Of a stretch of 64,000 bases of DNA, positions 11,201 to 60,000 are shown piece after piece. The notes beneath the pieces were generated by a model, which did not search any database, was not told the origin of the DNA, and worked only from the letters and a program-made list of their open reading frames with translations. The position numbers were made by a program, and so were the translations under genes. Position 1 is the first letter of the stretch, and every line of letters begins with the position of its first letter. Location: assembly GCA_034440575.1 (NCBI GenBank), contig JAOTOL010001662.1, forward strand, positions 1,548,001 through 1,612,000. Reading direction: 5' to 3'. The stretch is from Imbricaverruca yamaguchii (taxonomy: Eukaryota > Arthropoda > Thecostraca > Neoverrucidae).

Positions 11201-14200
11201 TGTGGTCGGTGCGCCCGCCTAGCGACAGTTAGCCGTTCTCTGGCTTCCCGTGTGATCGGTAGACTGGGACTCGGACTGGCTGCCACCCAGCTCTCCGTGG
11301 GAGATAATGAAGAAATGCGTTTTTGTGTGTGTGACATAATTAGTCTGGATCTGCCGGTTCTTATTCCGTCTGACGACGCTCCCTTCCGAGTACAACCTTG
11401 GCGTGAGGGTTCGGAGTAGTCAGCTGTTCGTCCAACTTGTCAATGCTAGCTGCTGAGGTGTTTGTCAATTCATTTCGCTCGGACAGAGCGCATGGACTCT
11501 GCACTTCGCCGCATGCACGACTACATGGAATGGTCGTGCACTACACTGCGCGCACGACTAATCTAGCTCGGCTTCACCGCGACCAGCTGCCGAGTGTGTG
11601 TGTAGTGGAACTCTTCAGGGGGAGAAATATAAAGTCAATATTTTGTTTGTTTAATTCTGATCGTGCACATTAGCTTTGTGAGATAACTGCATTAAAAGAT
11701 CGCCCATCGGATCTGTTGCTATGTTTTGCGGCGTAATTCTACCAAATGTATGTGAAATTATTCGCTGGGACCACACGTCCATGATGGGCGAAATATGTTC
11801 TGAAATGACAAGTGTGTGTTAAGTCTCGCGCGCTCGCTCGCCCCGCCCCATCGTTGGCCGTCCCAGCGTTGGCCGCCCCAGCGTGCAGCGGCTGTGGCCG
11901 TGCTCGCAGACCCCGTGTGGCGGCTGGGCCGGCGCCTGCTGCAGTTCGGCAGCGACTACGACCCGCCGTTCCCCGTCTACGACGCGGCCAACGACACGCT
12001 GCCGGAGCTGACGCCCAGCACCAGCACCAGCACCAGCGCCAGCGCCAGCGCGGCGCCGTGGCCGGTGGGCGCCGGCACCGTGGCGGCCACCGTCAGCGCG
12101 GCCGCCACCACCAGCACCAGCGTGCCGGCCGCCGTCTCCATCTCGGCCCTGGACGTGGTGCAGAGCGTGTGGAGCCGCCGGCCAGAGGACTCGGGCGTGC
12201 TCGGCTCTGTGCTGGGCGTCGATCAGGGTACCGGCCGACACGCGGCGTGCTGCTCGTGGCTGCGCATGCGACGTGCGCGCGCGTTCACCACCCCCGGCTG
12301 TCGGTGGCCGCCCCGCACGCATGTGGACACACTCCAGATCCAGATCGTAGACTTCTCGAGCGCACGATTCCGAGCTTTTCGGTCGGCTTAGATGTTTAGT
12401 GTGCAGGGTTGTGCTCCATATCGTAGTGGGCTCGACCGCGCGCGACTTCGTGCTGTTCGGTCTGCTTGGATGTTTAGTGCGTGATTTGTGTGGAACCTGT
12501 GAGGTGTTGTAGTTGAGGTGTCATGGTTTTTCCGGCAGCTGCTTGTGGTCGGAGTTGGCACTGAGTTTTGTCGTCGAGGTGTGCACCTGCAATGTGTTGG
12601 GTGTGGTCGTGCATGTGGGACGGACTGTTTAGCGTTGCTGTGCTCCCTACAATAGCATTCTCGCTCGGAGCGCTGTTGCAGACGTGCAGCCGTATTGCAC
12701 TCGTTGTCAGTCGGCATGACCGTACATTAATGTTCCTGCAGCATGTTCGTAGCCCTTTTCTACGCGGATTCGACCACGCTTGCATTCCAGTTTTTAATCT
12801 CCCACACAAGTTTGCATTGTTGTACTGTGTGTGGTGTGTTTTCAAGGTGTGCTTCCTTACTCTGATGTTGTGTGGCGCTGTGAAAATGATTTGTTTATGT
12901 GACTCGATTTATCGTAGCAATGCGTCGGACACGAAAGCGTTTGCTCTCCACCCAGGGAGCACATTATCATCGACCTTTAACTGCCCTTTACGTTCTCCGA
13001 GTTGGCTTCTTGAGATTTAAAAACATTTGTCAGTAGAGAGATAATTCAACATATGCGGGAGAAGATCCTTAACCTGGTGCACCTCACGGTATCCTCTTAC
13101 GTCGTATCCTCTCTATTGGAACCCCCTGTATCCCCCATCGCGGAGGTTCTGGTGTGGAAGCGGTCCCCATGCTTTCCTGCGCAACAAGTAGCAGGTTTTT
13201 GTGCTGTGAACTATGGAATATCAAAGTGCGTTACCACGCATTTGTATATAATTGTAATTATTGGATTCGCCTACACAAACAATCCAACTACAGTGCTTGG
13301 TCTAATGGAATAACTGTTCGGCATCATCATGAGCAAACACGCTGCTACGCTGACTCCTGTCAGCCTGTGTGTTCACCAGCACCGCTCTAAAACTACAGCG
13401 TACGACCTGTGTCCACCAGCACCACTCTAAAACTGGGGGACGAGTAGTCTAGGGGTAAGTTGCTCGTCTCACAATCGAAAGAGTGTGGGTTCGAGTCTTA
13501 CCTGTCGCTACTCTTCGCCCGCGACCAATCGGTGTGAGAGACTGGCGACGCTACGTGACTCAACGGTCGATGCGTCGTAAAAACCAATAACCAACCAACG
13601 CTTTAAAACTACAGCGCACGCTCTACTCCGACAGCCGAGTCGAGCGTGGCCACGCCCGACAACTACACGTGCGGCCGCATCAACATCATGGGCGACATCG
13701 TGCGCGACGCGTCGCCCTACCTGTTCCCGCTCATCATCGAGTACTCGCTGATCGGCGCTGCCGTGCTCTACATCATGTGGAAGAACATCGGCCGCTGTCC
13801 GCGCTACCTGGAGGAGGACGACATCCCCGACCACGTCAGCGTCACGTCGCGCAAGGCGCACACCAAGGTGCGGCGCCGGCGCCGCTTAGGTTCGCCTGGC
13901 TGCGGCGGGTGGCGAGACCGGGTCCCTTGTGCATCAGATGTACTCTTCGTGGTGCCAGAATAAGTGCCAGTTGTCCTGGCCTGGGCCGGACGCGCTTAGT
14001 GCTGAGGTGCTGGCGGTATGTCGCGACGTGTTACCTGTTCACACAGAGGTCAGGTGGGCGCGATTAATGTTGAATTACCGACGATATGTCGTGACGCATC
14101 ACCTGTCCAAATGGTGCTCAAGTGGGCGCACTTAGTGGTGAAGTAGAGACGGTATGCTGTGACGTGTCACCTGTCCAAACGGTGTTCAGGCGAGCGGAAT

Positions 14201-16055: not shown

Positions 16056-19000
16056 TTTGCATTAGCCCAGTATATATATATATATATATATATATATACT
16101 GGGCTAATGCAAGTTGCCTTATGATGCATTGCTTTCTGCACCATGATAAACACCACGAGCTAAGTAGAGCCACCTTGTGCTATGCCAATTAGGACCCTTT
16201 ATGGTCTTAGTCATGAACGAAGTCATGAACAACGATCAGCGCCTGGTGTTTAGACACGGCGATAACGCGTGATATCAGCGCCGATGGAGCTGACACGTGG
16301 CGTCAACAGGAGACCGCCAGTCTATAGTAGAACCAATCTGTGTGCAGACGGCACGACACACAGAGCCGCTCACTGTGCCCTCGGCCGTCGGCAGGAACAA
16401 GAAGCTCAAGTTCGTGCACGACAAGCCCGACAGCCTGGACGCCATCCTGCAGCGGGTGTCGGCGTTCGGCCTGTTCCTCTACTCGGTGTTCTGCGTGATC
16501 GCGGCGGCGCTGTCCCCGCTGCCGCACGTGCCCAACCTGCTGGTGCTCATCAGCGCCTCGCTGGTCATCCTGCAGGTGAGCTGCGGCCGGGCCGCCGGCG
16601 GGTCGCGATCGGGTCAGAGGTCGCTGTGTAGGTTAGTTACTGTCGGTTCAGAGGCCGCTCTGCGGGACCGGTCGTAATCGGATCAGAGGTCACTGTGTAG
16701 GTCACTTGGTATCGGGTCAGAGGCCACTCTGCGAGTTGGCCATGATCGGGTCAGTGGTCACTGTGTAGGTTAATTACTATCGGATCAGAGGACACGCTGT
16801 GGGTCGGTCATGATCGGGTCAGCGGTCACTGTGTGTAGGTCAGTTGCGACCGGGTCAGATGTTACTCTGCGTGTGAGTTACGGCAGGGTCAGGGGTCATC
16901 CTGTGGGTCAATCAAGACCGGGTCGGATATCACTGTGCATGTCAGTCAGGACCGGGTCATGGGTCACTGTACATGCTGGTCTCGGCCAGGCCAGGGGTCA
17001 TTCTGTTGGCGAGTGACGAGGTCAGAAGTCATGCAGATTGCATGGCTGACGGTGTGTCGGCACAATACCAGCACCACAGCGACCCTCAAATTCTTGCTTG
17101 TTTGTTTGTTTGGTAAGAATTATGTAGGAACATGAGCGACATTACTGATCACCAGTTGTTGCAAACGGAAACACGAAACTGACCCAGCGGCATAGGCGCA
17201 CCGGAGGGGGGCAGGGGGCCCGTCCCCCCATGAGACCAAAGTACCCTTTTGGCCAAAAGTGCCCTTTTGACCGAAAAGTGCCCTCTTGGCCGGAATGTCC
17301 CAAATTCAGCCCAAAAATCACCTGCCTTATGTGCCCCGCCGGTGTCGAATGTGCCTTTTGGGCTCAAAACTGCCCTTTTGGCCAACATTTTTTCACGCCC
17401 CCCATCCCCTCCCCCCGGCCAACAAACCTTCCATTGTGCCCCGGGCCGCAAAGTGCCCTTTTGGAGCCGGACAGGTGCCCTTTTGGAGCCGGCCAAGTGC
17501 CCTTTTCGGTCCGGCCCCCAATGGAAAAATCCTGGGTGCGCGCCTGCCCAGTGGTGGCATACATCATGGGCTCCGTGGCTTTCCATTCCATTTTATGCAG
17601 CCCATTTAATTCAAACGTTTCGGGAGCCTAAAAGCGGACTGGGTGGATTATGACTTTAAGGTCCGCTGGTGGGTGGCGCAACCGCCCCAATGACTGTGTT
17701 CATATTACACGAGAACAGTGCACAGGCCTTGTTATGCTCCACGGGTATTTCCCGTGTGCGTCGGGTATGACTGGTTCGGGCGACAAATGCCGATGACTGC
17801 ATATCTGATCGGGGGTTGACGCGTGTTATCAGTTTATTGGCAGTATCGTTCTTTTTCGCTTCCTCCTTTACCTCAGCTACCAAGTGTCATGCAGTCCTTG
17901 CCCACCATAGCTTGAAGTAGTGTCCTGGTGGTGACATCTAGCGTCAGGCGAGTGCATTACCCGTCCTTGGCCGCCGCCATCAGCCGGCTAATGTGAATCA
18001 TAACTCCAACCAACCACTTGGAGTTAAATGACAGTTCCAGTTTGCTATGCCTGGAGTTCCAAGAAACGTAGTCTTGCTGCTCCAGTTATATGTCGTGTGT
18101 CAAAACGGTGTCGTCATTTGTTTGCGGTTATTACACGTGACAGCCACCATTACTCACAGCTTACGATGTTCCGTGAGTTCATCCATTAGACATATACCGC
18201 CAAATACCGGCATAGCTAACCGGAGCGGCTTTCGGTACTGCACTGTTACGATGAGTTGTTGACTTGGAGATGGGGGGCCCGCTGCGTGGGCACTAGTGTG
18301 GCTGCTACTGACACTGACTCTGGTGACTGGCAGCAGCATGGTGCGTGTGATCGGTCGTTCTCAAACCCAGTCGATTGGCGCCAAACGGGCAGGGAATCGA
18401 CGCGCCGTACAGCCCAAATATTCAGTCGATAATTAGTGATGCTCGGCCAAAGTCAGTTTGTCCCCCATGTAGCTGATGTGTCCTGGACAGTTGCGTGGCT
18501 GACGTGTCCTGGACAGTCACGTGGCTGACGTGTCCTGGACAGTTGCGTGGCTGACGTGTCCTGGACAGTTGCGTGGCTGACGTGTCCTGGACAGTTGCGT
18601 GGGACGTGTCCTGGACAGTCACGTGGCTGACGTGTCCTGGACAGTCGCGTGGCTGACGTGTCCTGGACAGTCACGTGGCTGACGTGTCCTGGACAGTCAC
18701 GTGGCTGACGTGTCCTGGACAGTCACGTGGCTGACGTGTCCTGGACAGTCGCGTTGCTGACGTGTCCTGGACAGTCGCGTGGCTGACGTGTCCTGGACAG
18801 TTGCGTGGGTGACGTGTCCTGGACAGTCACGTGGCTGACGTGTCCTGGACAGTTGCGTGGCTGACGTGTCCTGGACAGTCACGTGGCTGACGTGTCCTGG
18901 ACAGTTGCGTGGCTGACGTGTCCTGGACAGTTGCGTGGCTGACGTGTCCTGGACAGTTGCGTGGCTGACGTGTCCTGGACAGTTGCGTGGCTGACGTGTC

Positions 19001-20424
19001 CTGGACAGTCGCGTGGCTGACGTGTCCTGGACAGTCGCGTGGCTGACGTGTCCTGGACAGTCGCGTGGCTGACGTGTCCTGGACAGTCACGTGGCTGACG
19101 TGTCCTGGACAGTTGCGTGGCTGACGTGTCCTGGACAGTCGCGTGGCTGACGTGTCCTGGACAGTCACGTGGCTGACGTGTCCTGGACAGTCGCGTGGCT
19201 GACGTGTCCTGGACAGTCGCGTGGCTGACGTGTCCTGGACAGTCGCGTGGCTGATTTGTCCTGGACAGTCGCGTGGGCCGACCAAAGCGCTAGTGAACCC
19301 TACGACGTGCCACATATTACGGTATGGATTTACGTCCCAGAGAGTTGCACCTGGAGAGAATATTACACTTTCAAAGAACGAAGAAAAACAGATGATGAAG
19401 CCCTTGCAATGTGTAACTCGTGTTACCGACATTATTTTCCAGAGATTGGTTGCACCCGTAATTGCGAACACTTCCGGTGAAAGTCGAAACTGTACGGTAA
19501 GCTTAAGTTAGCCTATTTGAATTTGAATGTGAAGGAACAGTAAATTGCGGATTAGAAGAATGTACAGCAGGTTCATTAGGAGAATATCGCGCTGCGATAT
19601 TCTCGATGATGTCTTCATCGAGACGATGTCTTCACCAACGCCGCAGGCTTCCATCCCGTAGTTCCGACGGGTTAGTTGTGATACCGTATGCTGGTCGGTT
19701 TTCGGCCATTGGTAAAGGTGTAAGCGCATCCAATAGGAAAGTCCCAGCAGCTTCCGTGGAGGAGACAGGATCAGGTTCAGACGCACACACATCAGCTGCG
19801 TGATCAGGGTCGGACAGAGCGGGCTCTCAGGGCTGGACGACACAGGCGGATGACACAGGCGGCTCGGCACTGTCTTATTGCTATCTTAGTCTATAGCTAT
19901 GTTTATAACTATGACGTATCATGTGTATCACGACGCCTCTGATAATCGAATCAAGGTGCTGACGTCACTTAAGGGTGATGTTTAGCTTGCGCCGTTTTCA
20001 GCACTTCGGACGATGTTTATAATGGGCGGAACCTTGATCTTCCGCTTCGATAAGACGCAGGCTTCTTCGGAATGTCTTTCTGGAGTGGAGCTGCGTGATC
20101 AAAACCTGCTCCAAGCATAGTTCCCAGAAGAACGTAACACCCAGGCACATTACTCATGTTAGGCGGAATGACTTAAGCTTGGAGAATGTATGCGCATCGA
20201 CAGTGTTGCAATGCTCCCGCCCTCTTGACTGTGGTTAAGGCGTGCCGACCGTGCACTAGTTAACCCCAGCCAAATCACGCCGCCGGCTATGGTTATTCAG
20301 TGTGGCAGTAATGGTACAGAACATTTACAATTAAGCCTCAAGGGTATTTGGATCGATATAAAGGACTGAATCGTCCACACAGAAAGCTATTATTTTCATG
20401 TATAATGAAATCCATAATATACAT

Positions 20425-20488
<64 letters not shown>

Positions 20489-21585
20489 ACACAGGTCCCA
20501 AAATGGATACTAACTTTAATTTTGGCATTGGAAGATGCAACGACACCTTTTCTCATCGAGCACGCTCACCTTTCGCAAGCGCCAAACCTGCGGTGAGGGT
20601 ACTTGGGTGATGTGTCGCAGGTGAAAAGCGACAGCTGGCGGCCGTGGTGACGTCATGGACGACACGCCGACCGTGTGTTGCAGGTGTTATTCCAGCTGCT
20701 GTACATCTCGGACGTGGCGAAGCGCGCCGTCTACATGCCCGAGCACGACCTGACCAAGCCCGGACGTCAGGTGGTCACCTTCCTGCTGCTCTGCAACATC
20801 GCACTCTGGGTCGTCTACACGCTGGAGATCAAGAAGGTCGAGGCCAACCCCGTGCAGGTCAGCGCCGACCCGCTAAACCCACGCCTCGCCGGCGGCCGGC
20901 TGGAGACCGGCTGTGGCCGCGCGTACAGCGCTAATAAGCGGAACGCCTGCGTCAGAACGATGAAAGACGTCGTTTCGTCGACAAATTTGAAGACAGTTCT
21001 GTTATCAAATTTGACGGCAAAATGGCGATTTGGCGACGGTTCTGTGATGAGACTTGGCGTCGCAGCTGCGCCTTTCGCCGCCGTGGCGCCTTTTTGCTCA
21101 TTTGCCGTTCTAACCGTGGCTAGTGATGGTCGTTCGGCTATATGTCTTCTCGCTCGACCATGTCGCTTAATCACTACTGTTCGCTGGGTGTCGTCGTGTT
21201 ACTACAGAAAGTTGCTAGGTGTCGTTGTGTGACTACAACTAGCTGCTGAGTGTCGTGTGAATGTGATTATCTGCTGGGTGTCGTCTTGTGACTACAGCCA
21301 GGTGCTGGGTGTAGTCACGTGTGACTACACGACATGGTGTGTCCCCGCAACATAGTGTGTTGATGGTTCGTCTCGCTGGTCGATACTCGGCGACGACGTT
21401 CGCTTGACCTGGCCAGCGGGCGCTGTTGACGAGGTGCGGCGTCGTTACAGTTGAACTTCTACGGGCCGCTCAACTGGGCCGTAATCGTGCGCGTGACGCT
21501 GCCGCTGGCCATTTTCCACCGCTTCCACTCGGCCGTCGTGCTGGCCGAGGTGTGGAAGTCGAGCTACAAGGCGCGGGCCGACTGA
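2109..21585 (+). CDS. Otop: Otopetrin-family proton channel (spliced, nine exons seen, 5' end missing)
   Basis: Otopetrins are plasma-membrane proton-selective channels used in acid sensing and pH control. Nine exons joined at GT/AG sites with matching phases give about 589 residues and a stop. The order is: Gly-rich N-terminus; a first helix block containing GAIAFGLGTMVYNGLELG; LNIHKFKVVARCGLMH with NVCVWVRTL; a variable Thr/Ser/Ala-rich loop (exon 4); SPYLFPLIIEYSLI with AAVLYIMWKNIGR; VDCIGSSKGLFCGLL with a hydrophobic helix; DAILQRVSAFGLFLYSVFCV; VTFLLLCNIALWVVYTLEI; and the C-terminal FYGPLNWAVIVRVTLPLAIF ending KARAD. These blocks match otopetrin family motifs as I know them. Introns are full of minisatellites. 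The start codon is not identified. Family assignment is very secure; the exact paralogue (OtopLa-like or other) is not. Confidence 0.93.
5190..5350 (+). CDS. Otop: Otopetrin exon 2
   Basis: The acceptor is ggttcacag before 5190 and the donor GTGAGT is at 5351. It begins with two bases that complete an Ala codon, giving GAIAFGLGTMVYNG across the junction. It runs to FTFMQMYFIFMNSR and ends in phase 0. It covers the end of the first helix and the second helix. Confidence 0.92.
5600..5915 (+). repeat. 18-bp minisatellite in otopetrin intron
   Basis: About 17 copies of GCCGGCTCTGCCTGCCCC. The period is a multiple of three and no unit contains a stop, so all plus-strand frames are open across the array. 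The resulting Pro/Ala/Leu/Ser-rich ORFs are artefacts. Confidence 0.95.
6290..7515 (+). repeat. 19-bp minisatellite, about 64 units
   Basis: The unit TCTGCCGAGTCTGACGTTG recurs without interruption, with point variants (GTTA/GTTG, TGGC/TGAC, GGCGAG). Blocks of several units recur as higher-order repeats, for example around 6660-6860, 6880-7050 and 7160-7400, which share the same variant order. The minus strand is open in all frames, giving spurious ORFs. Confidence 0.96.
7640..7700 (+). promoter_or_regulatory. TATA-like sequence in the unique island between two arrays
   Basis: CCATATATAAGTGGGCGG at about 7650-7667 lies in a GC-rich 730-bp island (7515-8240) separating two 19-bp arrays inside otopetrin intron 2. 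It resembles the TATA box of the Kunitz-Spatzle gene (CATATAAGTGGACCG at 26029). No downstream first exon could be assigned, so an alternative promoter is only a possibility. Confidence 0.25.
8240..9450 (+). repeat. 19-bp pyrimidine-rich minisatellite upstream of otopetrin exon 3
   Basis: About 60 diverged copies of TCTCACCCATCCGCCATTG, with CACCAGTG and CTCCAGTG variants. The sense strand is C/T-rich and the array reaches to within about 30 bp of the exon-3 acceptor, so it may act as an extended polypyrimidine tract. Confidence 0.93.
9484..9649 (+). CDS. Otop: Otopetrin exon 3
   Basis: The acceptor is cccgttgcag before 9484 and the donor GTCAGT is at 9650. It encodes LNIHKFKVVARCGLMHVIAT and continues NVCVWVRTLVRESLRVFTDH to EDFLIL, ending in phase 1. 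This is one of the best conserved otopetrin blocks. The preceding 19-bp array stops about 30 bp short of the acceptor. Confidence 0.92.
9930..10095 (+). repeat. Imperfect CAT/ATC trinucleotide-rich tract
   Basis: Runs of CATCAT, ATCATC and CCTCAT make a low-complexity tract inside otopetrin intron 3. Confidence 0.8.
10860..11215 (+). repeat. 44-bp minisatellite with an internal palindrome
   Basis: About eight units of GGTGTACTCTCCTGACGGTC followed by CGATACCACCACGGTGGTGT and GGTC. Each unit contains CACCAC-G-GTGGTG, an inverted repeat with a one-base spacer, so the array is a series of small potential hairpins. Confidence 0.93.
11889..12227 (+). CDS. Otop: Otopetrin exon 4, variable extracellular/linker region
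   Basis: The acceptor is ccagcgtgcag and the donor GTACCG is at 12228; both ends are phase 1. It encodes AAVAVLADPVWRLGRRLLQF, then a low-complexity Thr/Ser/Ala stretch coded by ACCAGC and GCCAGC repeats near 12010-12130, then SISALDVVQSVWSRRPEDSG to GVDQ. Linkers at this position are poorly conserved in the family, so the boundary at the 3' end is less sure. Confidence 0.82.
13436..13606 (+). mobile_element. tRNA-derived SINE, family A
   Basis: It begins with a tRNA-like head: A box TAGTCTAGGGGTAAG near 13446 and B box GGGTTCGAGTC near 13488. A conserved body (CTACTCTTCGCCCGCGACCA and onward) follows, ending in CCAATAACCAACCAACG. A close copy lies at 35699-35868 on the same strand and a 5'-truncated one at about 54330-54427 on the minus strand. 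Two full-length copies with the same ends show it is a SINE and not a tRNA gene. Confidence 0.85.
13635..13867 (+). CDS. Otop: Otopetrin exon 5
   Basis: The acceptor is ctccgacag before 13635 and the donor GTGCGG is at 13868. It encodes ESSVATPDNYTCGRINIMGD, then SPYLFPLIIEYSLIGAAVLY and IMWKNIGRCPRYLEEDDIPD, to KAHTK. It ends in phase 0, which matches exon 6. Confidence 0.92.
13985..14270 (+). repeat. Four units of a 68-69 bp repeat
   Basis: The marker GGTATGTC (or GATATGTC, GGTATGCT) followed by TGACGTGTCACCTGTCC recurs at about 14014, 14083, 14151 and 14219, immediately 3' of otopetrin exon 5. Confidence 0.8.
14473..14666 (+). CDS. Otop: Otopetrin exon 6
   Basis: The acceptor is cccatttgcag and the donor GTGCTG is at 14667. 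It encodes VDCIGSSKGLFCGLLVLVTA and two transmembrane segments, ending FVGFC plus two bases (phase 2). Confidence 0.92.
15967..16111. repeat. TA microsatellite ending in a long perfect hairpin
   Basis: About 42 TA repeats (15967-16050) are followed by TGCATTAGCCCAG, 14 more TA units, and the reverse complement CTGGGCTAATGCA (ends at 16111). The segment 16058-16111 is thus a 54-bp near-perfect palindrome. Confidence 0.93.
16395..16575 (+). CDS. Otop: Otopetrin exon 7
   Basis: The acceptor ggccgtcggcag was chosen because only it restores phase 2 with exon 6, giving FCRNKKLKFVHDK across the junction. It encodes DAILQRVSAFGLFLYSVFCV and LVLISASLVILQ, and the donor GTGAGC is at 16576. Other AG dinucleotides upstream are open but out of phase. 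Confidence 0.88.
16600..17015 (+). repeat. Degenerate repeat of roughly 40 bp 3' of otopetrin exon 7
   Basis: Variants of ATCGGGTCAGAGGTCACTGTGTAGGTCAGT recur about ten times. Divergence is high, so unit borders are approximate. Confidence 0.7.
17185..17540. repeat. Degenerate TGCCCTTTTGGCC-rich segment
   Basis: Short motifs such as GTGCCCTTTTGG, AAGTGCCC and GGCCAAAAG recur about a dozen times in a C-rich context within an intron. It looks like a decayed dispersed or tandem repeat; the open frames through it have no recognisable protein. Confidence 0.5.
18475..19275 (+). repeat. 26-bp minisatellite, about 30 units
   Basis: The unit GGCTGACGTGTCCTGGACAG followed by TCGCGT alternates between TCGCGT, TCACGT and TTGCGT forms. 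It lies in the large intron between otopetrin exons 7 and 8 and opens all minus-strand frames. Confidence 0.96.
20424..20485. repeat. CA/TA compound microsatellite
   Basis: Nine to ten CA units run directly into about 21 TA units. Confidence 0.95.
20684..20857 (+). CDS. Otop: Otopetrin exon 8
   Basis: The acceptor is gtgtgttgcag and the donor GTCAGC is at 20858. It encodes VLFQLLYISDVAKRAVYMPE and VTFLLLCNIALWVVYTLEIK, ending VEANPVQ in phase 0. Confidence 0.92.
21451..21585 (+). CDS. Otop: Otopetrin last coding exon with stop
   Basis: The acceptor is gtcgttacag. It encodes LNFYGPLNWAVIVRVTLPLA and the terminal HSAVVLAEVWKSSYKARAD, followed by TGA at 21583-21585. Confidence 0.93.
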   Translation: MNFYGPLNWAVIVRVTLPLAIFHRFHSAVVLAEVWKSSYKARAD

Positions 21586-26024: not shown

Positions 26025-26040
26025 GTCACATATAAGTGGA
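26025..26040 (+). promoter_or_regulatory. TATA box of the Kunitz-Spatzle gene
   Basis: ACATATAAGTGG is preceded by TGATGTCA, a CRE-like site. TATAAGT occupies 26031-26037. Transcription would start near 26060, giving a 5' UTR of about 190-200 nt before the ATG at 26257. Position relative to a well-supported start codon makes this plausible. Confidence 0.55.
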
Positions 26041-26256
26041 CCGCCCCGACGCCTGGCCGCCGCCAACTGAATGACCTGCGCCGGAACTGTGCGCGGTCCA
26101 CCGCGACCCTGGCCGACCTCGTCGGACTGACCTCGCCCCGGCGAAAGGCGCCGCCGGGGGAGTACCGCGAGTCGACGCCGGAGGGCCCACTCGTGGCCGA
26201 CGCGACCGTCGAGTGTGGACGTGACCCTTGGAAGCGGGCAGGAACAGGACGAGAAC

Positions 26257-26283
26257 ATGGCGTCGGCTACAGGGCCGCTGATG
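26257..26283 (+). CDS. Kunitz-Spatzle exon 1: start codon and signal peptide start
   Basis: ATG GCG TCG GCT ACA GGG CCG CTG ATG is followed by GTGAGT, phase 0. Joined to exon 2 it makes MASATGPLMVLLCGLCHVTC, a convincing signal peptide. It is the first of 13 near-identical copies of the same 41-bp unit. Confidence 0.75.
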
Positions 26284-26786
26284 GTGAGTGGCAGAGCATG
26301 GCGCCGACTACGGGGCCGCTGATGGTGAGTGGCAGAGCATGGCGCCGACTACGGGGCCGCTGATGGTGAGTGACAGAGCATGGCGCCGACTACGGGGCCG
26401 CTGATGGTGAGTGGCAGAGCATGGCGCCGACTACAGGGCCGCTGATGGTGAGTGGCAGAGCATGGCGCCGACTACAGGGCCGCTGATGGTGAGTGGCAGA
26501 GCATGGCGCAGACTACAGGGCCGCTGATGGTGAGTGGCAGAGCATGGCGCCGACTACAGGGCCGCTGATGGTGAGTGGCAGAGCATGGCGCCGACTACAG
26601 GGCCGCTGATGGTGAGTGGCAGAGCATGGCGCCGACTACAGGGCCGCTGATGGTGAGTGGCAGAGCATGGCGCCGACTACAGGGCCGCTGATGGTGAGTG
26701 GCAGAGCATGGCGCCGACTACAGGGCCGCTGATGGTGAGTGGCAGAGCATGGCGCCGACTACAGGGCCGCTGATGGTGAGTGTGCA
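26257..26786 (+). repeat. 41-bp array: 13 copies of start-codon exon plus 5' splice site
   Basis: Units start at 26257 and every 41 bp to 26749. Each reads ATGGCGCCGACTACAGGGCC then GCTGATG and the donor GTGAGT, followed by a GGCAGAGC spacer. The first unit differs (GCGTCGGCT); one unit has GCGCAG and one has GTGAGTGACAG. Every unit keeps ATG, the nine-codon frame and the GTGAGT donor. Confidence 0.95.
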
Positions 26787-29700
26787 CGTCCGTCGGAAAC
26801 ACGGCAACACCCACCACCGGAGCACGGTTCCAGTCATCCGGAACACAACACCCACTACCTAAGCACAGTTCTAGCCATCCAACCATCCGGAACACAACAC
26901 CCTCCACCAAAACACAGTTCTAGTTATTCAACCATCCGGAACACAACACCAACCGCCGGAGCACAGCTCCAACCATCCAACCATCCGGAACATAACACCA
27001 GCCACCACAGTACAGTTACAACCATCTAGAACACAGCACCAGCCACCGGAGCACAGTTCTAACCATCTGGAACGCATCACCAATCATCACCATCATCACA
27101 ATCACTACACCACCCATCGGAACACTGCACCAACACCAAAACCGGAGGGATGTAGAAACAGTCTAGTTCACAGGAGATTCTTCTCCAAAGTCTTGCAGGT
27201 GTAGGGACAAGATAACTAGCACATCTGGTAGAATAATAAATAATAAATAAATAATGAATTTACGAGCGATAAGTCTTATGGCTGCCAGGTGACGAAATTA
27301 GCACTACGGATATATCAGTGGGGAATGCAGTTAAAGCATTTCAGGGGCAAAAGTAAATGGGATTATTACTGGCTACAAACATGTAATTACAAATTACGAA
27401 TTACAGTAACATTACTACAAACATGTAATTCATAGATGTCAGCCAGGTTCTTGCATGCATACCTGGACTCCGGTCTTCCGATATGCTCGCACCGCCGAAG
27501 CAACAAATATTGCCACCACGACTTACGAGTAGGAGGCTCGGAGACTGACCGATTTATTTGACTGTCATAACTGGGACTATTTGTTTGGAGATATCCAATG
27601 GTTCATTAATATTACACTATGCGATCATTCTGCTGACATCATTTTCTGTGCACGATGAAAAAACAAGATATTAAATTCAAAATAGTTCGTGACATTAATG
27701 TGACAATTGCACCAACTGATTCAAACTAAATGTCATTTGCATTTTGGAATGATATAATTGTTCTGCTCATATATGGATAAAATGTCTTATTTTTGCCATT
27801 CTGATATTTTCAAATATATTTTATCATACCTTCAAAACACAAAAACACAAATGCAAAGCACTGCGTGCTAAATGGCCTATTCTAGGATGGAGAATAAGAG
27901 TGTGGAAAGAAATGCCATTCTGCGTTCTAGCTCGGCATCCTCAAGTGCTGGGTTTTAATTATATTAGGTACTCACTTGCATTTCGCTTTATCCAATTCAT
28001 TCCTGCATGCTATATGTATATTTCATGATTTATCCAAGATTAACAGCAATAACTAGTGCAGTGATCAGTTCGTTATGTATTTCACCCATTACAGTCAAGA
28101 AATCGATGGCGTAGAAAATACCTTGTGCTGGAAAGAGTATTTTTGGAAAGTTTCACTTTTCACTTTCACAAAAGTTTCACTCGACCTTCGGTCTCGAGCG
28201 GTGCTTTTTATTTGTGTGGGAGAGGGTGTGAGGGAACTCGACAGCGTAATTCCTTTTTCCAGGATCGTTCAGCAATATGTGTTTCTGTAGGATGCCATGG
28301 GTCATGCTACTACCACTTCACTTCCATGCTTAGTGCATCTCTGATGCCTTGGACCTAGCCCAGCCAAGCTCCTGTTTTAAGCTAACTGTTTTCGTACAAC
28401 AGGTGCTGCTGTGTGGACTGTGTCACGTGACCTGTGCCGATGTGGCCGCGCCGCGTCACGTGACGGCTGACGTGGGCAACGTCAGCGTGGCCGTCACAGC
28501 GGCGGCGCAAGACGTCACTGGGAGGACGGCCCGTCACTCGCCGGCCATCGTCACTGTCGGTACGTACCTGCAGGGCACCCGACTACCAGGGTAACGCAGC
28601 GCGAAAGTACCCGACAGCCAGAGCAGCAGCGCTTTTAGGCAAACACCCTGGAGTACTGGGACCAAGTGTTACGACTGCACATCTCAGAGCTGACTTAACG
28701 AGGACTGTGCAACAGATCAGAGCACATCAGAGCTGCGATGCGCACTCCAACGACGGACCAGCTTCTCAGAATCACGCGACTGCTGAGCTGATTGAACGTT
28801 TGAAGACAGACACGCACGTTAGACGCAATTGTCGACATAGCCATCTAGGTTCCGATTATATTCCAAAGTCATGCCTAATAGTGTACTATGTGGCCCGTTT
28901 TCAGGCATAGTACCGTGAGCGGTCACTTTGCAAGTGACTAGTGTGCGCATTGTCAACATGGTATTGAGGGTGGCATGCTTGATAGTTAGGGCATCGAGAT
29001 ATGCATGCTATCGAGTCTACGTGACTTTCCTGCGGTTACTGTAGACTTCCTGTCATCTCCTATGGAAAAATTATCTCCCCACGAGAGATATTCCTCAAGA
29101 TATTCCCCTTGCTCTTGGCTATCTACACCAGTGCATTTTTTCACCATATACAGAACATGAGCATGACTATGGTTTGCACGGCAGGATAAATTTGCCTGAT
29201 TGAATATGCTGAAAATGTGGTCTTAGGAAACAGCAGAAAGACTGGTCATTGCCGGCCGTTCTGGAGAAAGGATGGATTTGTTTTCACACAGTCAAAACAA
29301 GAACACGGAAAAGCTCCTCCACACGTGCCTAACACCGGCCACTGGCTTTGGGCATTGGCCGCCAGCAGGTCTAAGCGAGCAGTCACCTAACTACATAACA
29401 TCAGCCCATTACAACCCTCGTAACCCAGCAAATATCCCCATCACATTCTAATGAATTGGGACTACTTTGTGGCCACTCAGAGACGCTTTGCCACCGGTCA
29501 CCACATCATGAGCCCCTTTTTGGTGCTAATCTTACGGAGAACATTTGGGAATAAGGCTGAATAAGAAGGTGCCTTTATATCCTAGCTGTCACCCCGGGCT
29601 CAGGACCTGGAATCCTTTCAAGGCGGAGGTGAGGGGGTGATGACTGATCTGTGTCTTCACCCCGACTACGTCCTCTTTACGCCCATTGAAGCGAAGCTAG

Positions 29701-32700: not shown

Positions 32701-35700
32701 GCGGTAGTACACGTGTTCGAAGTTCCACATGTTCCATCTTCACTTCACCAACGATGGTTGAAGCTATAACTCAGACGTTATAGCAATGCCAGAACAACAC
32801 GAGATGAGGTGTCGCCGTGACTAGCATGACGTCCGCCCTGCGTTCTGCGCCTGCCACGGACTCTGACGGGCCTGTCGCTCTCCCAGAACCGGTGAAGGGA
32901 CGGGCGCGCGGCCTGACGGGCGGCCAGGTCAAGTTCCCCGGAGAGGAGGGTCGCCACGCGCCGCCGCACTTCGGCGCGTCGTCGCACTCTCGACTCTGGC
33001 ACCAGGTGCTGTACGGCACGGCCGACCCCGGCCGCTACACGCCTGCCATCTCGCGGGCCGTCTGCCAACTGTACCCGGACGGCGGCTCGTGCTCGGGCAC
33101 TGTGCGAGCCTGGTACTGGGACTCGACCGTCGAGAAATGCAAGACGTTCCTCTACGGCGGCTGCAAGGGCAACGGCAACAACTTCATCACTGAGCACGAG
33201 TGCCATTCCGTGTGCGACATAGGTATGTTCATTGCTCAAGGTCATGTAAGTTATGAGCAAAATCTTAGTGACGCGATATCCGGCCTGGACATTGGAGGCT
33301 GTGTCGCTATGTTTGCAGGACGCGTCCAGATTACTAGGGCGACTACCATACCAGTGACGCGATTGTCCTCCAGATCAATCTTGAGTAATATTAATGTGGG
33401 CTGCACAGAAACTGAAGGGTCGACAGTACTCAAAATTGTTCCAATACGCATGTGTTGCACCTTCTTGACTCAGACAGGGCCAGACATTGCCCTGATGTAA
33501 TCTTGGCCCACAATACTTTTAGAACGTCTTGTTCCTACCGCGACCGCTTCTCTTGATAACGTTCTCGAGTCACATGGAGCAGGCAGACCAGGCATAGATA
33601 TAACCCCTGGATTTCAGCTATTGCGTTGACATGGTAGCGGAGGTTCAGCCAATCATGTGTAATGCTCCATGTCTGCCACTGGAGCGGTGTTCGCTAGTGG
33701 GACCATTAAGAACACTGCTGGTTCCGAACTGACGCGTGCTAATGATGGCAGCACAGTCCAACCATTGATAGGTCGAAAACGAGCATTACACCACATTCCT
33801 AAATTGTGTATAACCTAACTATTTGTTGAAATGGCACGCTTGCAGCAGATGTATATATATTTTTAAAACAAGGGCATCGCTAAAATGTAAACATCGTACC
33901 GTTAGATATAATGTGGTCACCCGCTTGAAAGTAAAACGAACTTACAAAGGTGCATTATCATGTATTATATTAATTATTTCGTGGGTCGCAAACACACAGA
34001 TGTTGGTTTCGTGTTCATGTTCCTTATAAGGAAGACAATTAAAGGCACTTTGGTATGCATTCCACGTTTTTATCAGGCAGTGACTCGTTCGTCAGAGTGG
34101 TACTTGCCACATTTACCATAATACGTCATTAATAGGTACCAATTAGCTATATAGCACATTGTTGCATGATGCAAATCAGACTTGTTCTCTCAGACTCACG
34201 TGCCTACGTTAACAAGCCCTCCTGTTGCCAGGGTATCGTCAGAAGGTGACAGGCAGTAGCAACTTTCTGCCGAGGCCCGTCTCCACTGGGTACCTCCACC
34301 GTCCGACCGCCGCCTCCCAGTACTACCCGCCCACACCGCTCGACACCAGCTACCGACCGAAGCCGGCCGTCTCCTCCCGGCCCACCTACCCCAACTTCTC
34401 CCACGGCCACGCCCACCTGGCGACTATTGGCGAGGTCGACCTGAACGGCCTGACCCCGCTGTCGCCGGCGGCGGGGTCACGACCCTTCGGGCCAGCTGCG
34501 GCCGGGTCACGGCCGTACGACGAGCCGCCGCCGCACCTGCCGGGCCGCTGCTCCGACTCGGAATTCTTCTGCGACTACGACAGCGACGACTATCCCAGGT
34601 ACAGTCGGGCTCGAGACCTGCGACTAAAGTGACTATCTAATGCCGCGTTGATGTCGGGTACTACGACAGCGACGACTATCCCAGGTATAGTCGGGCTCGG
34701 GACCCGCGACTAAAGTGACTATCTCATGCCGCGTTGATGTCGGGTACTACGACAGCGGAGACTACCCCGGGTACAGTCGGACTCGGGACCCGCTACGAAG
34801 GTGACCATCACATGCAGCGCTGAGGCTGGATACTACGGGAGCGGAGAGTATACCGGGAACAGTCGGGTTCGGGACCTGCGACAAAGGTGACCATCTCATA
34901 CAGCATTGAGGCCAGGCACTATGGCACTGAAGAGTAGTGCAGGTAGTGCCACGGTCGGGAGCCACGGCAGCGGAGAATATCCCAGGCATCGCCACTGTTC
35001 GATGCGGTGGCAATGATGACTGCCTAAATTGGCCACGAGCTAACTGAGTTAACTAACTAATGGCACATACGATGACTGGGAAACACTTATACGATGCATT
35101 AGTGGACACTAAGTATGAACTGTTGGCTTGTTTGTCGGATGGTTCGCTACGTACCTGATGCACAACCACGGCTAATGCCCCCCCACACTGTTTCGCGGAC
35201 GGGCCATGGAATTGGGCGCTACAAGACCAAAGTAGTTGATGCGCCCTAAAGCCCTAATAACCAACCGGGTCATGGAATTTGGAAACGTTCCAAATGGTGC
35301 GAGTTTTGAACTTGGGACCTTGGCACCCGGAGTTCAATACTGTGACCACCCCGCCACCGCGCCCCAAGCACAAATTACAAAGATGCTTTATGCTTGCTTC
35401 ACTGCTGCCTGAATGCAACCCTTTATGACTGAGTAAGTAGAATATAATGTGTTAACCGCAATAAGTTTAATTGTGACCTTTGGTACACAGTTCAACGGTG
35501 AACTCCCTTTTCGAGCGGTACGGACCCGAGCTGCGGCAGATGTACCGGGAACTGTACCAGCACGCTCCAGAGCAGTACCAACGTCACGGCAACGGTACCT
35601 GGGACCAACTGAGGTACGCACGTCAACCAGTCAATGTCATGTCAGACGGAGTGTGATTCATTGCCCCGACAGGCAGACGGCGCAATGAAGCTTTGGAGTG

Positions 35701-38333
35701 GGGACGAGTGGTCTAGGGGTAAGTTGCTCGTCTCACAATCAAAAGGTTGTGGGTTCGAGTCTCACCTGTCGCTACTCTTCGCCCGCGACCAATCGGTGTG
35801 AAAGGTTGGCGACGCTACATGACTCAACGGTCGATGTGTCGTAAAACCAATAGCCAACCAACCAACTGAAGCTTTGGAGTGTCGAAAAATGGTATCGATA
35901 CAATCTATGTGTGGCAATCGATGCATGGATATGCATGTAAAGTATGCATGGTATGGTAATCAATGTATATGCATACATATACAAATGTATATATATATAT
36001 ATATATAATATGCGATCGATGTAATGATGGGAAATGGCGTTATCGAGATGGAGATCTTCAAAGATTTGACCTTACTTTTCATGAATCAGGTCAGCATACT
36101 ATTATGAAGCCTATTTTCAATTTGGGTTAAAAAATCGCAATGGCAATCCTTGGCATTTGCGGGCAGCATGAATGGTCAACCAATCTTGATGGTAGATCGC
36201 CCTCACCAGCAACTGCTTGGTGATGGAATGTCCCCAATTTCGGTAAAAATATTCCCCAAAAAAGAATGTTAATTAAAAGCGACGTTTTTTTCACATTTTT
36301 CACGTAGTTTTCACATTGACATTGACAATGCTTGGTGCAGTGATTTTTTTTTGCCGTGCGGGGAAATCCTATGAACCTCAAGAACCTAAAGGAGGACATA
36401 AAACCAAAACTAGAAGCCCCACCAATAAGCTTCTACTTATGATTACCGTTTGATTGATTATGATCAAACAACTTTTGATTATGATTGATGATTATGATCA
36501 TAGAGGACTTTACCGTTTGTAGAGCATCTCTATGATAGACAAAACCTGATCGAATGTTCCGGTAGCCGCACTGAGGGCCAGATGTTCGCTGCAGCTCCAC
36601 GGACGTACTCTTCACAGGCTCCAGGGCCTATTCGATGATCCACTGAACCGTCGAATAGATGATTAAGGCGCAGCCAAAGTCTGGCTCTTGGTTGGGCCCA
36701 GAGATGCAGCCAAGTGCTCAGCTCCAGGTCAGGGGCCCGGCCCCTGCTCCCTTAGCGACCAAAAATACGTTTGAGCCGCCAAAATATTTTGAGATTTCTA
36801 CGACTGAAACTGTAGGTTTTTGACGCGCGAAGTGCGCCAAAAGTGTTCTTTCTTTCATGCCATTGTTTTTTGGTTGAATCCTCTCAAGAAAATACTCACT
36901 GCACACTTGACTGAATCCCTTCTTGGAAATTATACCTTGGAGGTTCCTCGAACGTTTCATAGAGGACTTTAGGATGCACCGTACGCTGGGACCAGGGGCT
37001 CTTTTACTACGCTTAAGACCTCTGTCGGTCCAGAGGCCTTTCACATCGTCTCTAGGACCTCTCCGACGGTCCAGGATCCTCCCTAACCTGTGGCTCGGGG
37101 CTCCTTCCCGTCGGTTCACTGGCTTTCTTTGACTGCCAAAGGCATTCTCAGCCAGGCCCGAGTTGGCTCCTTCCGTCATACCAAACTCTTCCAAAAGTTT
37201 GGCTCCTTCCGTCAGACCACACCAAAACCTTTCACCAGTCCATTTGAAAACATGCAGCGATTGGAAAACATCGACGACAAACTTGTGGGGCCGGAGCTCC
37301 TCCGAAGACACAACTGCGCCGGGGCGTTGAGCCGGTGTTGGTCGCCGTTGCAGCGCCGGCGGCCGGTCGGCGCCCGAGTCGCCCTCGGCTCGCCACGGCC
37401 CCGGCGAGTTCGTGTGCGAGTCGGAGGTGCGCCACAGTCGGCCCGGCTGGGCGCGCAGCTTCGGCGCCAGCTGGCAGCTGGTGATCAACACGTCGTCATT
37501 CCCGCAGGCGGTGCGCACTGAGCGCTGCAGGTACGGCTGGCGGCGAAAACGACACCGCTCGGCAGGAGCGCCACCGCCCCCGGGAGACGGCGGTGGGAGA
37601 GGCATGCCCCGAGCTTTGTTAAATTTGTGGTTAAATTATGCCCATGACCTTGCATGGAAACAATCGAGCACAAAATCCCTCGCCCCTCCCACCGTCCTAC
37701 GCAAAGCACTGGGTAACGCCCATGGATCCTCAGACCGTATGCTCACTGTATCCTGAAGTATGGATCCTCAGACCATGTGTTCACTGTACCATGAAGCATG
37801 TATTTTTTTAGATGGAGGGGATGCATGTTCCGAAAAGTGCCGATACGGTTTGCGTAGCTGCAAAATTACCTTAAAAAGATGCATTTCATATGTTCAGCCT
37901 TATTGAGTTGAGTGTCGCCTTGGTCTTAATAGTTTCAGTGTTGATAAAACACCCATACAGCAAACAATATGACAAGTTTATCGCACAATTGGCAATTATT
38001 TGGGCCTTTGTTTCTGCAGCTGCCGCCATATTCTTGCTCACTTTAATATATATTATGTAGGCACTTCAAAATTACTTCTACTAAATTGCCACCGACTGTT
38101 TCAGATACGAAGGGCGACGCTGTAACTACCTGCCACCCTGCATGAGCTCGTTTTGCGTGCAGCGCTTCGCTGTAGTGAAAATGCTCTGCGCCAACCCCCT
38201 AAATCCCTTCGCTCGGCCGAGGGTTCAAGAAGTTGACATCCCGTCCGGCTGTTCCTGTTACGTCACCGGCGACCGGGCTGACGTCTGGCGGGAACCATGG
38301 CTCCGGTCCAAGCATGCCGATCATAAAGACTAG
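26257..38333 (+). CDS. Secreted Kunitz-domain plus Spatzle-like cystine-knot protein (seven exons)
   Basis: Seven exons with perfectly matching phases encode about 471 residues. Order: signal peptide MASATGPLMVLLCGLCHVTC (cleavage likely near CA/DV); a short linker; one Kunitz/BPTI domain in exon 3; a Tyr/Pro-rich linker; a Spatzle-type prodomain CSDSEFFCDYDSDDYP with LFERYGPELRQMYRELYQHA; a putative activation site SPSAR/HGPGEFVC; and a cystine knot with EVRHSRPG, SWQLVINTSSFPQAVRTERC, CNYLPPCMSSFCVQRF and VDIPSGCSCYVTG. Spatzle proteins are proteolytically activated Toll-receptor ligands in arthropod immunity and patterning; Kunitz domains inhibit serine proteases. Having both in one precursor would place a protease inhibitor on a protease-activated cytokine. 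Spatzle identity is strong (WQL-VIN, QAVRTERC, IPSGCSC). One-gene linkage rests on phase matching and continuity; a transcript would settle it. Confidence 0.85.
26790..27120 (+). repeat. Degenerate repeat of about 40 bp downstream of the exon-1 array
   Basis: Variants of ACCATCCGGAACACAACACC followed by CACCGGAGCACAGTTCTA occur about eight times. Confidence 0.85.
27130..28402 (+). other. Kunitz-Spatzle intron 1, unique AT-rich part
   Basis: No repeat, exon or RNA gene could be supported. Short AT-rich runs only. Confidence 0.5.
28403..28559 (+). CDS. Kunitz-Spatzle exon 2
   Basis: The acceptor is tcgtacaacag and the donor GTACGT is at 28560. It encodes VLLCGLCHVTCADVAAPRHV, TADVGNVSVAVTAAAQDV and SPAIVTV, starting in phase 0 and ending in phase 1. 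It contains one NVS sequon. Confidence 0.78.
28560..30989 (+). other. Kunitz-Spatzle intron 2, proximal part
   Basis: Unique sequence, followed from about 29980 to 30370 by a pyrimidine-rich tract with recurring CCCGACTCT motifs, then a GC-rich block at 30430-30770. The open frames have no recognisable domain and no matching splice sites. Confidence 0.4.
31055..31205 (+). repeat. Three units of a 50-60 bp repeat
   Basis: CAGATCCGTCACCAGATCCG, TCACCACACGCTACATCTCT and GCCGTGTGCAGG recur three times. Confidence 0.85.
31655..32720 (+). repeat. Degenerate CAGTCAGTCCGACTGACGTG array upstream of the Kunitz exon
   Basis: Units of roughly 40-60 bp contain CAGTCAGTCCGACTGACGTG followed by CTGACGGTACTAACAG or CTGACGGTACTCGCAG. 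They decay towards 32720 into a looser pattern (TAGTGACGGTAGTCCACAGT). CAGTCAGTCCGACTG includes an inverted CAGTC/GACTG pair. TACTAACAG resembles a branch-point plus AG. Confidence 0.85.
32887..33222 (+). CDS. Kunitz-Spatzle exon 3: Kunitz/BPTI domain (phase 1-1 cassette)
   Basis: The acceptor is tgtcgctctcccag and the donor GTATGT is at 33223. Cysteines are spaced 8, 15, 7, 12 and 3 apart, exactly as in BPTI: CQLYPDGGSC, then WYWDSTVEKC, KTFLYGGCKGNGNNF, EC and HSVC. The P1 residue after the second cysteine is Ser, not Lys or Arg. Both boundaries are phase 1, so skipping the exon keeps the frame. Confidence 0.9.
34232..34598 (+). CDS. Kunitz-Spatzle exon 4: linker and start of Spatzle prodomain
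   Basis: The acceptor is cctgttgccag and the donor GTACAG is at 34599. It encodes YRQKVTGSSNFLPRPVSTGY, a Tyr/Pro-rich linker and RCSDSEFFCDYDSDDYP. The phase is 1 in and 2 out. The C-x6-C-x6-YP pattern is the Spatzle prodomain signature. The donor region is repeated downstream with an 86-bp period. Confidence 0.85.
34575..35000 (+). repeat. 86-bp repeat copying the exon-4 end and its 5' splice site
   Basis: The authentic end TACGACAGCGACGACTATCC with CAG/GTACAG at 34599 is copied with an 86-bp period. Copies are CAG/GTATAG at 34685, CCGG/GTACAG at 34771, a mutated GAACAG at 34857 and GCAG/GTAGTG at 34943. Identity falls with distance from the exon. Confidence 0.9.
35155..35370 (-). mobile_element. 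Degenerate tRNA-derived SINE, family B, with a nested SINE fragment
   Basis: It shares CACGGCTAATG, CCCACACTGTTTCGC and a tRNA-like minus-strand head with the copy at 62050-62231. A fragment ending GATGCGCCCTAAAGCCCTAA then TAACCAACC (35217-35266) is inserted. It is flanked by a 16-bp target duplication: GGGCCATGGAATTGGG at 35201-35216 and GGGTCATGGAATTTGG at 35267-35282. Confidence 0.75.
35491..35613 (+). CDS. Kunitz-Spatzle exon 5: prodomain helix
   Basis: The acceptor is ttggtacacag and the donor GTACGC is at 35614. It encodes STVNSLFERYGPELRQMYRE and LYQHAPEQYQRHGNGTWDQL, with one NGT sequon. The phase is 2 in and 2 out. It resembles the amphipathic segment that follows the YP motif in Spatzle prodomains. 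Confidence 0.82.
35699..35868 (+). mobile_element. tRNA-derived SINE, family A
   Basis: It is nearly identical to 13436-13606: A box TGGTCTAGGGGTAAG, B box GGGTTCGAGTCTCAC, body CTACTCTTCGCCCGCGACCA and tail AACCAATAGCCAACCAACC. Confidence 0.85.
37354..37530 (+). CDS. Kunitz-Spatzle exon 6: activation site and first half of cystine knot
   Basis: The acceptor is tcgccgttgcag and the donor GTACGG is at 37531. It encodes GGRSAPESPSARHGPGEFVC, then SWQLVINTSSFPQAVRTERC plus two bases. The Arg in SPSAR lies eight residues before the first knot cysteine, the same place as the Drosophila Spatzle cleavage Arg. WQLVIN is a family hallmark. Confidence 0.88.
38105..38333 (+). CDS. Kunitz-Spatzle exon 7: second half of cystine knot and stop
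   Basis: The acceptor is gactgtttcag. It encodes YEGRRCNYLPPCMSSFCVQR, then CANPLNPFARPRVQEVDIPS and GCSCYVTG, ending KHADHKD with TAG at 38331-38333. Eight cysteines are present over exons 6 and 7. A TTAA-flanked element begins 53 bp after the stop. Confidence 0.88.
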
Positions 38334-43855: not shown

Positions 43856-45541
43856 ATGCGGGCGGCGGCGCGCGCGCTCTGCTGCTGCCTGCTGGCGGCG
43901 GCCGCTGCGGCTGACATCTGCAGCAGACGGCCGGACCGCTACCACCCGACGCTCCGACTCCACGCCGACTCGGACACACTGCGCCAGCCGAGCGTCCACC
44001 AGGAGGCGCGCCGACCGGCTGGCCGGCCGGCACCAGCGGCACCACCACCAGCTCGACCGGATCGCGTCCGCCGCCGCCGTGCCGCCGGCTCGAAGCGTGC
44101 GCACCTCCCGCGCCGTCAGCGGGCCGCCGGCCCCCGCCGACGTCAGCCGGACGTCGTCCGCCGACGACACGCCGCAGCCCGTGACGGTGGTGCACGGCGT
44201 GCTGCTGGAGCCGTGGCTGAACGCCAGCGCGCGTCACAGGCGGCGGCTCGAGGCCGGCGAGCCGGCGCCCGACGACGCGTCGGCCACCGTGCGGCGACAC
44301 GCCCTGGTCGCCGCCACCGTGCTCAACGCCGTGCAGACGCGCAGCGTCAGCGCCGGCGACCTGCTGCGCGAGTTGGCCCGGCTGGCCGGCGAGCCCGACG
44401 GCCGGCTGGAGCGCAGCCTCAACATGTCGGTGGCGGCGCTGCGCGACCGCAGCCGCTCGCGCGACATCCGGCTGGAGGCGCTCGTGCTGGAGGTGAAGGC
44501 GGGCCTGCTGGAGACGGCCGACGCCGTGCGGCTGCTGGCGCGGCGGGCCGACAACAGCAGCGCCGACATCGTGCGCACCGGCCGCTTCATCAACGGCGTG
44601 ACGGCCGCCGTCGACGGCCGGCTGCGGGCCGCTGAGCGTGCCCGCTCGGCACTGCAGGCCGACGTGGCCCGGCTGAACGCCAGCCTGGCCCAGCTGGACG
44701 GCCGGCTGAACGCCAGCCTGGCCCAGCTGGACGGCCGGCTGAACGCCAGCCTGGCCCAGCTGGACGGCCGGCTGAACGCCAGCATGGCCCAGCTGGACGG
44801 CCGGCTGGCTGTGGCGCCGCGGCGGGGGGACGAGCCGCTGGCGGCGCTCGACCGCCGGCTGGCCGACGCGAGTCGAGGCGTGGCCGAGCTGCGCGAGCTG
44901 TGCTCGTCGCCGCCGCCAGCTCGGCCAGCCGGCGAGCTGGCCGAGCTGGCGGCGCAGCGCAGCCAGACGGCCGCACTGCGCCGCCAGGTGGCGCGTCTGC
45001 GCGAGACGGGCGCAGTCGGCCGCCGGCGTCTGACCGCGGCCGAGGTGCGCGCCGATCAACTCGAGAGCCGTCTGCAGCGGCTGCAGGACATCGTCGTCGG
45101 CCTGCACACGCCCGATCAGACGCAGCTGCAACGAATGCAGGTGCGGCACGAGCTGCAGAGGCTGCAGACAGCCGAGCACACGGGGGCCTCGCGAGTAGAT
45201 GCCGTCGAGAGCAGCACCGGCTCGGAGGACGATGACGACGAAGACCCGCTCGGAGAAACCGCCGAGAGTGGCCAAAGTTTGTCAGCCAACGTTCTGGCGT
45301 CCGACCCGAGACCCGCCGGCGGCAATCGCCTCGGACTCGGTGCCGAAGGCGGGTCTGACCTGGGCGCCGGGTCAGACGTGCCCGACGCTGACCTCGGGAC
45401 TGCGGGGTCAGAGGTGGCAGGTCACCTCCTGTTGCTGTCAGGAGACATCCCCGGCGCCATCGTGACGGCTGACGGTCTGGTACACGCGGACCACCACGGC
45501 GGCACCTTGGTTCTCGCCAGCTCCGTTCACGTCGATAACAG
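43856..45541 (+). CDS. Coiled-coil protein exon 1 (contains a frame break)
   Basis: The frame of ATG 43856 has high GC at third positions through GTCCACCAGGAG (about 44004). The +1 frame has it from about 44010 to 45541. The donor is AACAG/GTCAGT. Potential N-glycosylation sites are numerous (NAS in each 11-mer, NMS, NSS). The acidic tail SSTGSEDDDDEDPLGE lies near 45210-45260. Confidence 0.7.
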
Positions 45542-59819: not shown

Positions 59820-60000
59820 GACAAGAAGCAAGAATACAAGAAGCAAAAATACAAGAAGCAAGAATACAAGAAGCAAGAATACAAGAAGCAAGAATACAAG
59901 AAGCAAGAATACAAGAAGCAAGAATACAAGAAGCAAGAATACAAGAAGCAAGAATACAAGAAGCAAGAATACAAGAAGCAAGAATACAAGAAACACGAAG
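59820..60000. repeat. 15-bp minisatellite, about 12 units
   Basis: AAGAATACAAGAAGC repeats almost perfectly, preceded by short GAGACGAGAGACG motifs. The period is a multiple of three, so the minus strand shows long Leu/Phe- or Cys/Ser-rich open frames that are artefacts. Confidence 0.94.

Follow-up and report, generated by a model that had tools for sequence, protein, structure and literature searches.

The first coding exon of a Kunitz-Spätzle gene, together with its 5' splice site, very probably forms the unit of a tandem array in Imbricaverruca yamaguchii. The array consists of 13 units of 41 bp and lies in a gap-free stretch of 64,000 nucleotides with 53% G+C (the window). Each unit carries a start codon, a nine-codon open frame, and the same strong donor. 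We lean, with moderate confidence, towards a young minisatellite that captured the start exon and its donor, where a mixture of the donors is used and the extra copies are tolerated by-products. The features are listed in Table 1.

Table 1. Features of the start-exon array and of the predicted gene (positions in the window)
Feature	Position	Strand	Basis
TATA-like element TATAAG, presumed promoter	26031..26036	+	inference
19-codon upstream ORF ahead of unit 1, weak start context	26071..26130	+	sequence
Minisatellite, 41 bp x 13; every unit has ATG + 8 codons + GTGAGT	26252..26782	+	Tandem Repeats Finder, unit-by-unit reading
Unit 1, probable exon-1 codons (MASATGPLM), followed by donor 26284	26257..26283	+	ortholog N-terminus
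Unit 13, final copy of exon 1 (MAPTTGPLM), followed by the intron-proximal donor 26776	26749..26775	+	unit reading
Exon 2	28403..28559	+	gene model
Exon 3, Kunitz domain	32887..33222	+	gene model, Pfam
Exon 4	34232..34598	+	gene model
Second array, period 86, exon-4 end and donor repeated	34574..34899	+	Tandem Repeats Finder, sequence
Exon 5	35491..35613	+	gene model
Exon 6, Spätzle domain start	37354..37530	+	gene model, Pfam
Exon 7, remaining Spätzle domain and stop codon (38331-38333)	38105..38333	+	gene model, Pfam

Array, gene model, and first exon

Tandem Repeats Finder reports the array with a period of 41, 13.0 copies, and 98% matches. A sequence-only reading had described thirteen tandem copies of a start exon with its own donor, and the description holds in 13 of 13 units: an ATG at 26257 + 41n opens a 27-nt stretch that is followed by GTGAGT at 26284 + 41n. 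The array was thus found where that reading had placed it, but the end claimed, 26786, lies 4 bp too far (26782 by Tandem Repeats Finder). The coding stretch reads MASATGPLM in unit 1, MAQTTGPLM in unit 7, and MAPTTGPLM in the other 11 units. There are six variable internal columns. In agreement with the earlier claim, coding variation is limited to codons 3-5: unit 1 differs at codons 3 and 4, unit 7 at codon 3, and units 2-4 at codon 5. The two remaining variants, at -2 relative to the start codon of unit 1 and at a spacer base of unit 3, lie outside the coding part. The final two bases of unit 13 also deviate, which marks the array edge. When up to three mismatches were allowed, the 41-mer was found at 12 places in the window and at none in 100 shuffles; unit 13 differs at its 3' edge. 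Tandem Repeats Finder, the unit-by-unit reading, and the shuffles exclude an array that arose by chance or as a repeat-finding artefact. The RNA fold of three units is unremarkable (z = -1.72, with 13 of 200 shuffles folding equally well), and a simple pyrimidine rule found no acceptor-like site within the array.

Read-through past the donor was expected to stop inside the next unit. This is the case for units 1-12, where 21 codons are read before the frame closes at the TGA within a TGATG of the following unit; from unit 13 it continues for 37 codons to a stop at 26860. It was further thought that no donor pairs with an ATG other than that of its own unit, and in all 13 possible splices to the acceptor at 28403, no upstream array ATG crosses the donor used and each closes before the junction. 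A splice at donor n puts n-1 array ORFs ahead of the main ORF, from 0 at unit 1 to 12 at unit 13. The 13 splices yield three N-termini only, and residues 3-4, which belong to the presumed signal peptide, are the sole variable positions among the first 26.

The joined exons have six GT-AG introns, remain in phase, and encode a predicted protein of 471 residues. Pfam places a Kunitz domain at residues 120-171 (E 1.7e-17) and a C-terminal Spätzle domain (PF16077) at residues 356-449 (E 3.2e-17). The best protein match is LOC122365025 of the barnacle Amphibalanus amphitrite, a protein of 502 amino acids with both domains and 49% identity over 90% of the query. At least four matches were obtained at E <= 0.001 (7,992 candidates scored), and a two-sequence profile again gave four. 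Residues 280-471 alone matched only LOC122365025, with 69% identity (102 candidates). With seven exons in phase, two domains, and a relative in A. amphitrite, the Kunitz-Spätzle gene looks genuine. The spliced N-terminus is hydrophobic (9-residue maximum 2.88), and the protein is presumed to be a secreted precursor with a signal peptide. Members of the Spätzle family serve as Toll-receptor ligands after proteolytic cleavage. In this gene and in its A. amphitrite relative alike, a single precursor, presumed to be secreted, unites a Kunitz with a Spätzle domain. The residue that follows the second cysteine of a Kunitz domain determines inhibitor specificity; it is Ser in both proteins, so trypsin-type inhibition is not obvious. 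Among the matches listed in a search of the literature on barnacle minisatellites or on Spätzle with Kunitz domains, nothing was relevant to the array.

Exon 2 is unable to provide the start, because no Met occurs in its frame upstream as far as a stop at 28331. The A. amphitrite ortholog starts MELCRETLLVLLLW, and the spliced protein of I. yamaguchii starts MASATGPLMVLLCG. When these N-termini are aligned without gaps, position 1, position 8, and the VLL at positions 10-12 are identical across the exon-1/exon-2 junction. At shift 0 the alignment scores 11, and none of the other ten shifts between -5 and +5 exceeds -2; of 20,000 residue shuffles, 495 attain 11. A plain aligner puts a gap after VLL, and the local BLASTP alignment starts at residue 38, which leaves the junction outside. 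Exon 1 and the acceptor at 28403 are moderately well supported, as the ortholog N-terminus aligns ungapped over the junction; exon 1 is supported rather than proven, since this match is short and hydrophobic.

Donors were scored with an approximate matrix, at a threshold of 7 unless stated. On this approximate scale, every array unit scores 10.11, compared with 4.71-8.26 for the other five donors of the gene. The 12 kb before 28403 contain 26 donor-like sites of at least 7, half of which are the 13 array units, and 34 in-phase ATG-donor pairs, 26 of them in the array. The in-phase model, the two domains, the ungapped N-terminus, and this share of the pairs all support the proposal of the sequence-only reading that the unit is the first coding exon with its 5' splice site, which is very probable. 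The true first exon might instead lie elsewhere, with the array being an intergenic or intronic minisatellite that has a donor by chance. Candidates can be named: 13 non-array donor-like sites, among which 16576 scores higher than the array (10.87) and 27289 (7.07) sits between the array and the acceptor, and eight in-phase pairs outside the array (16959-21337), some of which, such as those at 21334 and 17031, have hydrophobic N-termini. However, the eight pairs have weaker donors and lie at least 4.9 kb before the array, and some share their stretch with an otopetrin exon. The site at 27289 has no in-phase ATG, and no in-phase pair occurs between the array and the acceptor, even at a donor score of 5. 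Since the ortholog also backs a nine-codon first exon, we regard a first exon elsewhere as distinctly improbable.

Donor choice among equal copies

In the explanation that we prefer, the array would have grown by repeated duplication of a 41-bp segment that holds the nine codons of exon 1, start codon included, together with the 5' splice site. Transcripts would start upstream of unit 1, some 30 bp past the TATA-like element at 26031, so that all 13 donors would be included. U1 snRNP may be able to occupy many of them, and a mixture of array donors would then be spliced to 28403. First exons and first introns may prefer the cap-proximal donor. In the excerpted text of PMC6002489, the intron-proximal member of a pair of comparable donors is favoured, for reasons described there as not known, and in that of PMC5585400, SRSF1 and hnRNP A1 shift the choice between competing donors. 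Given these influences, namely the intron-proximal rule, the shifts by SRSF1 and hnRNP A1, and the possible cap-proximal preference, a mixture is expected. The stretch protected by U1 is given as 23 + 12 nt (PMC6002489, in part), which is less than the 41-nt spacing; therefore, neighbouring units could be bound simultaneously.

Transcripts spliced from unit 1 would be translated normally. Those spliced from unit n would carry n-1 extra short upstream ORFs, each closing at UGAUG shortly before the next donor, and would give less protein. Since donor n places n-1 ORFs before the main ORF, early donors would account for most of the protein. Most likely, the additional copies are by-products that are tolerated rather than a dial kept by selection, and the copy number probably varies among individuals with modest or no effect. 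A strict intron-proximal rule would count against this neutral view, as unit 13 would then be dominant with its 12 upstream ORFs, a state that would be hard to tolerate neutrally.

A second donor-bearing array in the same gene, at the end of exon 4, favours a mutational by-product. Its copies (86% matches) retain GT at 34599, 34685, and 34771, and have GA at 34857. A stop at 34630, lying between donors 1 and 2, closes the frame of exon 4. Only the first donor can therefore yield the Spätzle domain and the full protein, because the stop precedes donors 2 and 3. Exon ends and donors have thus been duplicated in this gene without serving the protein. The comparison with the start exon is imperfect, since the exon-4 donors are weak (4.71, 4.88, and 2.51 with the approximate matrix) and the copies are older and more diverged.

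It is possible, if somewhat unlikely, that unit 1 alone is used, with the cap-proximal donor winning and units 2-13 being inert intron sequence. Exon 4 sets an example, as it must use its first copy for the Spätzle domain to be made, and the preference for cap-proximal donors in first introns would act in the same direction. Against this stand the donors of units 1 and 13, which are identical in sequence and score, and the usual preference for the intron-proximal site among comparable donors as it appears in the excerpted PMC6002489.

The array could also be a copy-number rheostat, in which donors compete, skipped units act as upstream ORFs, array length sets the amount of secreted protein, and selection preserves the units. 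This would agree with the intact ATG and donor in 13 of 13 units, with upstream array ATGs that always close ahead of the junction, and with the increase in upstream ORFs along the array. The 13 intact donors are compatible with selection, too. However, such conservation is expected of a young array anyway: with six variable columns placed at random, the nine columns of ATG and GTGAGT stay unchanged with P = 0.20, and selection on them is not detected. For a wider set of 13 functional columns the probability of being missed by chance is 0.084, again with six variable columns and low power. The suggestion that selection or gene conversion keeps the donors intact consequently found no backing in a comparison of so little power. 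The frame arrangement of the units is nothing special. When ATG and donor were fixed and the rest was shuffled, 38% of 20,000 random open units also stopped before the next donor, and a special frame design was rejected accordingly. The similar array at exon 4 has no such use either, and we consider the rheostat unlikely.

A bolder idea extends to secretion. Ribosomes that stop at UGAUG could restart at the overlapping in-frame AUG (Met9), giving MVLLCGLCHVTCA... as the N-terminus. A length-variable start-exon array might thus tune both the amount and the secretion of an immune or developmental ligand through donor competition, UGAUG upstream ORFs, and a restart at Met9 that shortens the signal peptide, but we hold this to be quite unlikely.

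Comparison with known systems

The clustered protocadherins and UGT1A have tandem alternative first exons with separate promoters, which are spliced to a common downstream exon. The start-exon array resembles them in having several first exons able to join one common downstream exon. In contrast to those genes, its 41-bp units have no promoter of their own: by eye, no TATA-like element is present, and only 14 bp separate the exon copies. Human IFI6 (6-16) contains a minisatellite with a 12-bp repeat unit that lies in the coding region and alters the protein. The title of Turri et al. 1995 attributes multiple splice donor sites to this minisatellite, and downstream repeat units are reported to serve as donors (PMC4526556, in part). 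The likeness is that of a minisatellite at an exon end that offers repeated donors. Here, a good donor is found in every unit, and from the gene model and the ortholog N-terminus a unit is predicted to overlap the true exon end. Unlike in IFI6, the unit contains a start codon, and a later donor adds upstream ORFs rather than residues. Use of the repeat donors is reported for IFI6 in the excerpted source, whereas for the array it is a proposal. Of the known systems, this minisatellite with multiple splice donors is the closest, and what differs is the start codon in each unit, which makes upstream ORFs of unused copies.

Closely spaced competing donors are also described for ER-alpha exon 1 (PMC6002489) and DOK7 intron 4 (PMC5585400). 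In the excerpts of these papers, the competition is between two sites, 33 and 11 nt apart, respectively; the array has 13 identical donors that are 41 nt apart, each with a start codon. The growth hormone gene of Sparus aurata has a polymorphic first-intron minisatellite that is reported to repress expression (PMC5133863). The unit as printed in the excerpt of that paper is 13-17 bp and, unlike the array unit, is without a start codon or strong donor. Among the matches listed in the open-licence literature, there was no precedent for a repeated start exon with its own donor.

Thirteen identical, evenly spaced donors with their own start codons represent a natural experiment on the choice of the spliceosome among equal donors, a choice whose basis is termed not known in the excerpted PMC6002489. 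The array bears on which donor, the cap-proximal or the intron-proximal one, a first exon follows, and the donor used can be read from RNA through leader length and unit variants. It also illustrates that, in a repeat-rich genome, minisatellites can come to include the start codon and splice sites of a gene that remains open. For gene finders, it is a warning that a single gene may present 13 equally good first exons.

Repeats across the window

Tandem Repeats Finder gave 84 rows in the window. With an array locus defined by a period of at least 10 and at least three copies, 29 loci including the start-exon array cover 9,918 of 64,000 bases (15.5%). Of the gene's six donors, two lie in arrays; of its six acceptors, none does. 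The probability that at least two of six donors do so is 0.235 at the window coverage and 0.204 when both arrays concerned are removed from the coverage. Other arrays are similarly uniform (99% at 44665, 97% at 59821, and 95% at 18472 and 5610). The array on the start exon is probably a repeat that happened to lie there. Donor-like sites on both strands fall in arrays in 54 of 173 cases, exceeding coverage alone; 44 of these are contributed by three arrays (13, 16, and 15), as copies of each other. It is very unlikely that the array functions as clustered U1 sites, raising early transcription or guarding against premature polyadenylation whichever donor is spliced, since the local abundance of arrays already explains its presence, despite 13 strong U1 sites in about 530 bp near the presumed start and the effect of promoter-near donors.

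Two further arrays are rich in donor-like sites of at least 7, one at 52071-53241 (+) with 16 and one at 8350-9464 (-) with 15. The array at 52071 was considered as a further exon-end array; the neighbouring frames that were tried matched nothing in Pfam or PDB. At 14014, a 232-bp array that contains GTATGT was considered as a third exon-end array and left out because, by eye, the open stretch nearby probably ends about 150 bp before it. Rfam at gathering scores had no match in the 64-kb window. The unit sequence had no match in viral contigs and a shorter pattern had none in prokaryote genomes, two collections not meant for barnacles. Directly 3' of the start-exon array, in intron 1, lies a C/A-rich array with periods of 41, 49, and 98 (26835-27083, +). 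The window also contains two matches to the proton channel otopetrin (PF03189), at 5189-5359 (+, E 3.6e-20) and 20672-20863 (+, E 2e-20), and a further likely exon was seen by eye near 13650-13868.
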